DNA from: Blattabacterium cuenoti
GTDB lineage: Bacteria > Bacteroidota > Bacteroidia > Flavobacteriales > Blattabacteriaceae
Assembly (NCBI RefSeq): GCF_014251815.1
Contig: NZ_CP059202.1
Span: 496,001 to 560,000 of the forward strand
Reading direction: 5' to 3'
Length of the DNA stretch: 64,000 bases
Under the pieces are notes generated by a model, which was not told the origin of the DNA, searched no databases, and was given only the letters and a program-made list of their open reading frames with translations. How positions within the stretch are numbered: the stretch's first letter is position 1; each line of letters opens with the position of its first letter. Positions 58,588 through 59,636 of the stretch are shown here, in pieces. The position numbers were made by a program, and so were the translations under genes.

Positions 58588-58638
58588 TTTAAAATTTTCT
58601 TTAATTAAAAAATTTACGAAATTTTTGTTTGATTATAT

Positions 58639-58668
58639 TTGATCAAATTAAATAAAGAATTAAATTTG
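58639..58668 (+). promoter_or_regulatory. Promoter of the mevalonate kinase gene
   Basis: TTG (58639-58641), 19 bases, then TAAATTTG (58661-58668): a full consensus match 27 bases before the ATG at 58696. The TTG sits within a 12-base palindrome ATTTGATCAAAT (58637-58648), and another TATATTTG is at 58634. Confidence 0.7.
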
Positions 58669-58695: not shown

Positions 58696-59636
58696 ATGAA
58701 AAAAACTTTGTTTCCTGCAAAAATACTACTGTTTGGAGAATATGGCGTTTTGAAAAATTCGAGTGGCCTTTCTATCCCTCATAACATTTATAAAGGCGCT
58801 TTAAAGCTCCCTTGTAAATTCAATAAATATAAAAAATATAAAGATATTTTATGTTCCAATTATCAAATTGGAAAATTTTATGATTTTTTGTCTATTTTAG
58901 AAAAAAAAAACGAATATTAACGAAATTAGATTTAAAAAAATTACATAAAGATATACAAAGGGGGGTATTTTTTCATTCGAATATTCCTAAGAGATATGGA
59001 GTAGGAAGTTCTGGAGCATTAGTAGCTGCTATTTATGACAAATACACAAAAAATAAATTACAGGGGGCTTTTAAAGAAGAAATTGTAATATTAAAAAATA
59101 TATTTAGCCAAATGGAGTCTTTTTTTCATGGGAAAAGTTCTGGAATAGATCCTTTAATTTGTTATTTAAATCAACCTTTACTTATTAGATCTAAAACTAA
59201 TATTTCTATCACAAGCATTCCCAAAAAAAATCAAGGAGAAGGGGCTATTTTTTTATTAAATTCTGGAATACCAAGAAAAACTGATTTTATGATCCAATTC
59301 TTTTTGAAAAAATTAAAACATGATAATTTCAAAAAAATTTTTTCTTCAGAATTCATAAAATATAATGAAAAATGTATTGAAGCTTTTTTAAAAGAAGATT
59401 TTAAAATCTTGTTAAAAAATGTTAAACTGTTATCTGTTTGGGTTTTTAATCATTTTCGTCCCATGATTTCTAAAAATTTTTGGAAAATATGGGAAAATGG
59501 AATATTCAGTAATATCTATTATTTAAAATTGTGTGGATCTGGAGGTGGAGGCTTTATTTTAGGTTTTACATCAAATTATGAATTATCCAGAAAAAAATTA
59601 AAAAAATATGCAACGGAAGTTCTTTTTCGTTTTTAA
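58696..59636 (+). CDS. mvaK: Mevalonate kinase (GHMP family), frame broken at a 10-A run
   Basis: ATP-dependent phosphorylation of mevalonate towards isopentenyl diphosphate. Motif 1 PAKILLFGEYGVLK is in frame from ATG 58696. The frame then ends at TAA 58918-58920, 75 codons in. In the next frame the protein continues from CGA at 58911 with motif 2 IPKRYGVGSSGALVAA, SSGIDPLICYL and motif 3 LCGSGGGGFILGF, to 59636. The switch falls at ten A (58901-58910): one extra A, or a -1 slip, joins the parts into about 313 residues, the family length. A separate start at ATG 59112 would lack motif 2. Either slippage rescues it, or it is a recent pseudogene or a read error. Confidence 0.85.

Follow-up and report, generated by a model that had tools for sequence, protein, structure and literature searches.

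The window analysed here is a stretch of 64,000 nucleotides from the genome of Blattabacterium cuenoti, which is complete and consists of a single contig of 624,029 bases (624 kb); the window covers positions 496001-560000 of it. Blattabacterium is a symbiont of the cockroach fat body. Near one end of the window lies a kinase gene, referred to here as mvaK, whose coding sequence is divided between two reading frames on the plus strand (Table 1). The first frame aligns with the N-terminal part of the kinase of intact relatives. Its 74-residue product would carry neither GHMP motif 2 nor motif 3 and has no evident use. An initial annotation of this DNA had claimed that the three GHMP motifs are split over two frames meeting at a run of ten A, and that one added A would give a normal protein of 313 residues. 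Our reading of the frames confirms the split, and the span from the ATG to the final stop, to which one base must be added to give 313 residues and a stop, agrees with the predicted length.

The same annotation had described a clean promoter in front of the gene. The motif TTTG-N19-TAAATTTG, which we take to fit the Bacteroidota-type promoter consensus, is indeed present as an exact match and is the sole plus-strand match in the window. Window-wide, 7.6 matches are expected by chance. A sigma-70 promoter scan, which was uninformative, gave no sigma-70-type site at mvaK on the plus strand. We retain the motif as promoter-like.

Table 1. Positions of the features discussed (features of the window are numbered within the window, all others within the genome named)
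Feature	Position	Strand	Remarks
Promoter-like motif TTTG-N19-TAAATTTG	58638..58668 (window)	+	consensus match alone; ends 27 nt before ATG
mvaK, ATG to final stop	58696-59636 (window)	+	941 nt
First frame of mvaK	58696..58920 (window)	+	ATG at 58696, 74 codons, premature TAA at 58918-58920; bears GHMP motif 1
GHMP motif 1 PAKILLFGEYGVL	58714-58752 (window)	+	in first frame
Second frame of mvaK	58884..59636 (window)	+	open, 250 codons and stop TAA at 59634-59636
A10 run, slip site	58901..58910 (window)	+	exactly ten A; in-frame relative G034 has A11, one base longer
GHMP motif 2 GVGSSGALVAA	58998..59030 (window)	+	in second frame
GHMP motif 3 KLCGSGGGGF	59526..59555 (window)	+	in second frame
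aroQ (presumed name)	60382 (window)		ORF from which the name is taken
murE	258486 (258.49 kb), genome of window		A11, one base short; no other genome has a break at this run
murD	260670 (260.67 kb), genome of window		A9, one base short
mvaD	290748, genome of window		present and intact
topA	355480 (355.48 kb), genome of window		A12, one base short
Further break	137319, genome of window
Further breaks	211379, 452871, 559615, G004
Further breaks	428878, 143453, G030
dnaX	60269, G004		A11 directly followed by TGA

Identity of the kinase and isoprenoid supply

The product of the split gene is probably a mevalonate kinase of the GHMP superfamily. The Pfam GHMP_N model scores above its cut-off for the split kinase, and the top NCBIfam match is the mevalonate kinase model TIGR00549, to which the second half matches with 55.7 bits and an intact relative with 61.7 bits. 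The equivalog cut-off of TIGR00549, 163 bits, is missed by this intact relative and also by a free-living flavobacterial homologue (64.7 bits), and for this reason we grade the identity as probable. A profile of the family compared with the PDB found mevalonate kinases alone (2x7i, E=5e-8; 2oi2, E=5e-4), and in Flavobacterium the homologous kinase gene adjoins mvaD. An AlphaFold model of an intact relative was set aside (pLDDT 71, the first 33 residues below 50), as were its PDB matches, which were led by mevalonate kinases but had TM-scores of only about 0.3.

The surrounding pathway appears incomplete in the genome. HMG-CoA reductase, HMG-CoA synthase and DXP reductoisomerase were not detectable there, and a search of the whole genome with PF00288 returned thrB, the split kinase and mvaD only. 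Since the three former enzymes were not found while an intact mvaD is kept, the kinase, if active, would be the entry step from mevalonate supplied by the host, which fits an earlier proposal that B. cuenoti imports host mevalonate (PMC3819652). The GHMP matches of the genome include no phosphomevalonate kinase, and there seems to be a gap between mevalonate kinase and mvaD. The argument of the initial annotation that isoprenoid supply makes a true loss of the kinase costly is thus partly supported, by the missing upstream genes and DXP reductoisomerase and by the retained mvaD.

The same break across the genus

All 49 congeners in our comparison set of Blattabacterium genomes keep mvaK, and in 17 of them it is frameshifted at the A-run that is broken in the window, in every case through the lack of a single base. 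The broken run is A10 in 15 of these species and A11 in two. Broken runs have at least ten A in every case (17/17), versus 13 of the 32 intact genes (Fisher p = 3e-5, shared ancestry uncorrected). On a protein tree of nadK, rluB and mvaK the frame state changes at least nine times, and seven of these changes are forced by strongly supported branches; nadK alone requires eight changes and rluB alone five. The frame state has therefore switched at least five to nine times over the trees, and 11 separate frame losses would be needed if re-framing were impossible.

Both halves of mvaK are under purifying selection, as had been supposed from the single sequence. By the Nei-Gojobori method, applied to species pairs and without a significance test, dN/dS values for the second half lie at 0.18-0.34 in shifted pairs and at 0.09-0.35 in intact ones, and those for the first half are similar but depend on few changes. 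None of the 17 shifted genes has a stop in either half. In an alignment with free-living relatives the shifted genes depart from 70 invariant sites by a mean of only 0.4; all 70 sites are kept in 13 of the 17, and the eight catalytic or motif residues are never altered.

DNA alignments reveal several ways in which sister species have regained the frame. It is restored by A11 in G034, by a longer A-run in G002 and by A8 in G042, while A10 is retained in G012, where a 4-nt insertion upstream mends the frame, and in G046, where a 2-nt deletion just downstream does so in a gene 91% identical to that of the window. No single indel could bring back a gene that had decayed during its time out of frame. 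The G046 record shows another 25 or so breaks at A7-A10, T9 and G9, almost all of them lacking one base, which look like homopolymer undercalls. In the same record mvaK, murD and topA each combine a broken run with a 2-nt deletion on or beside the premature stop, by which the frame is restored; these deletions could be natural compensation or the mark of an edited record. The re-framing argument holds independently of G046.

These results bear on the view that mvaK is a young pseudogene, with the host supplying isoprenoid precursors and the enzyme lost in parallel in many species. Homopolymer indels are often the route by which endosymbionts lose genes (PMC3017870), and the upstream mevalonate genes were not found in this genome, as this view would have it. 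However, a second lesion occurs in none of the 17 broken genes, and species pairs with the break in common (G005/G028, G030/G028, G016/G017, G021/G033) have second-half dN/dS of 0.23-0.34. With mvaK lost in none of the 49 congeners, frames regained, mvaD kept and the same pattern in murD, we give the pseudogene only a slight chance. A chance of similar order, and if anything slighter, attaches to heterogeneity of the DNA itself, in which a population or multi-copy chromosomes would hold both A10 and A11, the assembly would report the majority and recoding would be unneeded. Long A-runs are expected to mutate fast, and the length of this run does differ between sister species, but 17 species would each need to retain a functional allele as the minority, and the A10 runs with second-site compensation in G012 and G046 indicate that A10 can be fixed.

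A sequencing or assembly error, with a true run of A11, is less probable again. Some technologies miscall homopolymers, and the many extra breaks of G046 resemble such errors. Nevertheless, the same mvaK break is present in 17 separate genomes, Blattabacterium assemblies call A11, A12 and A13 at this very run, and G012 holds A10 in frame through its insertion. Moreover, the conserved ORFs of the window's genome contain 124 coding A-runs of at least ten, of which only three (in mvaK, murE and topA) are clearly broken, indicating that the breaks are not random miscalls. The least credible reading is that two separately translated subunits assemble into the kinase. Both frames are open and conserved, as this would require, but the second frame offers no ATG, GTG or TTG ahead of motif 2 in the window and in 12 of the 17 broken genes, the start-like codons of the others lie at no common place, and the kinase of intact relatives is a single chain. 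We rejected the separate-subunit model because start codons are wanting in the second frame.

Breaks in other genes

A survey of conserved ORFs returned 102 raw events, many of which are N-terminal start differences or short spurious ORFs; breaks were counted where A-runs of at least nine lie inside conserved genes. A parallel to mvaK is murD, where 23 of 49 species have a break at one common run of A9-A14, each of them one base short; the deep lineages G015, G029 and G038 are among these species. Many of the murD slip sites read A AAA AAG. In topA, one run near residue 60 is broken at A10-A12 in 13 of the 43 species examined, 11 of them one base short and two (both A11) two short. In G017 the gene is degenerate and in G011 partial, and it was not found in G038 and G039, so that some members of the genus may be able to dispense with topA. 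As for murE, it is broken differently in G003 and G008. Further one-base-short breaks were observed at A10-A12 in queE, miaA, birA, a deoxycytidylate deaminase-like gene and a gene that is presumably aroQ (Table 1).

The only clear case in the opposite direction is dnaX of G004. Here, in the tau region, TGA comes directly after A11 (GAA AAA AAA AAA TGA), and this run is not present in the three other genomes compared. The arrangement resembles that of dnaX genes making gamma and tau by slippage, with a gamma-like form as the expected short product.

Taken together, the recurrence of the mvaK break, the selection on the gene, its re-framing and the pattern in murD and topA make it very unlikely that the gene is dead or that the break is an isolated sequencing error.

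Slippage as the probable means of rescue

That 17 of 49 species keep the break without decay of the protein argues for repair of the frame rather than loss of the enzyme, and we conclude that the cell almost certainly repairs the mvaK frame when making RNA or protein. Slippage of RNA polymerase, which would insert an A into the transcript, is the most likely mechanism and in our judgment a probable one. Rescue by slippage had been proposed from the window alone, with the same locus in related strains named as a check, and the recurrence in the genus, the selection on both halves, the lack of further lesions and the repeated re-framing support it as the best reading. Bacterial RNA polymerase is known to slip on A-runs of at least nine (PMC5009743). 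In Buchnera transcripts, 151 of 157 insertions lie in homopolymers and deletions do so rarely (16) (PMC5574713), and the share of transcripts corrected at long A-runs is 12-50% in endosymbionts of aphids and ants (reviewed in PMC5009743). We propose that a functional mevalonate kinase gene would have dropped one A from its coding A-run, and that RNA polymerase would slip on the resulting A10 and add one A in a fraction of transcripts. The slipped transcripts would be translated normally into the 313-residue enzyme and the unslipped ones would give a dead 74-residue product. The loss of the A would then be only partly harmful, so that it could persist for long, arise repeatedly and occasionally be undone in the DNA.

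Several features of the breaks are consistent with polymerase slippage. An insertion-biased polymerase would cure runs that are one base short and not those that are one base long, and thus predicts the one-base-short bias seen. The broken mvaK runs have the lengths to be expected if rescue requires a long run, and we count the same pattern in murD and topA as further support. The bias could also be explained by deletion-biased mutation, however, and it fits -1 ribosomal slippage equally well. The murD breaks at a mere A9 in many species are near the lower limit for polymerase slippage and count against it.

In the ribosomal alternative, a -1 frameshift on GA[A AAA AAA] would leave the RNA unchanged and produce the same EKKKR junction. 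The slippery heptamer A AAA AAA is in phase in the first frame of mvaK, a weak point since any A10 run contains one, and the murD site is often A AAA AAG, which is of the dnaX type. The genome has a single tRNA-Lys, with anticodon UUU, a -1 shift would cure all 40 of the broken species states of mvaK and murD, and ribosomal correction has been inferred at a chloroplast oligo-A site (PMC8254509). On the other hand, a run of seven would be enough for a -1 ribosomal slip, yet no broken mvaK run is shorter than ten. The 80 nt after the run show no notable fold compared with shuffled sequences (z = -0.75, for folds without pseudoknots), and inspection by eye revealed no stimulator of the Shine-Dalgarno type. 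In addition, the A11 alleles of topA in G013 and G016 need +2 or -1 in the RNA, and a -1 ribosomal shift would be no cure for them if topA works there. We consider ribosomal frameshifting, the chief rival of polymerase slippage, unlikely, although clearly less so than the readings weighed above. Because the EKKKR peptide is identical by either route, transcriptional and ribosomal slippage cannot be separated from sequence alone, and the two may act together.

Transcriptional slippage at poly(A) tracts is known as the means by which frameshifted genes are kept in Buchnera and Blochmannia (Tamas et al. 2008, reviewed in PMC5009743; PMC3017870), where some breaks are common to several species (PMC3017870). 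Blattabacterium resembles them as an AT-rich insect endosymbiont with a single indel in a long coding A-run of a gene that is otherwise intact and, in mvaK, under selection. As in those symbionts, breaks are common to several species, in mvaK conserved between species without decay, and cell-wall genes are hit. It differs from them in belonging to the Bacteroidota instead of the Gammaproteobacteria, in being known from DNA sequence alone, and in the 17, 23 and 13 species affected in three genes, with repeated gain and re-framing and almost always one base short. In dnaX, slippage is ribosomal in E. coli and transcriptional in Thermus (PMC8254509, PMC5009743). Like mvaK, dnaX has an A-run slip site, A AAA AAG/A, that opens a second frame; unlike mvaK, it uses both products. 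In the chloroplast atpB gene of Oenothera (PMC8254509), whose expression system is likewise of bacterial type, an oligo-A stretch is again the site at which the frame is restored, but the case concerns a mutant of one plant, with ribosomal frameshifting inferred, and is not conserved between species. We found no report of frameshift or slippage breaks in Blattabacterium in the searchable literature, most subscription papers lying outside the search. The kind of rescue is already known. What is new, as far as we can tell, is the phylum and the number of species concerned, together with the repeated loss and regain of the frame and the clear bias in direction.

Tentatively, we put forward the possibility that the genus Blattabacterium carries, as a standing load, A-runs lacking one base in essential genes such as mvaK, murD and topA, and that an insertion-biased RNA polymerase would cure them. 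Frame lesions in long A-runs would then be near-neutral, would come and go in the course of evolution and would be tolerated in a single direction, which would leave the bias of the polymerase written in the genome. In a stronger form of this proposal, the length of the A-run would be tuned to set the dose of the enzyme.

The mvaK case would extend rescue by slippage from gammaproteobacterial symbionts to a symbiont of the Bacteroidota. The genus offers dozens of natural replicates, in which one and the same run has lost and regained its frame on many occasions in genes of isoprenoid supply, the cell wall and DNA topology, and with these it could be tested how much slippage a frameshifted essential gene requires in order to be kept and whether the direction of polymerase slippage selects the lesions that survive. 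Pseudogene calls and metabolic models in which mevalonate kinase, MurD or TopA count as lost from such genomes may be wrong.
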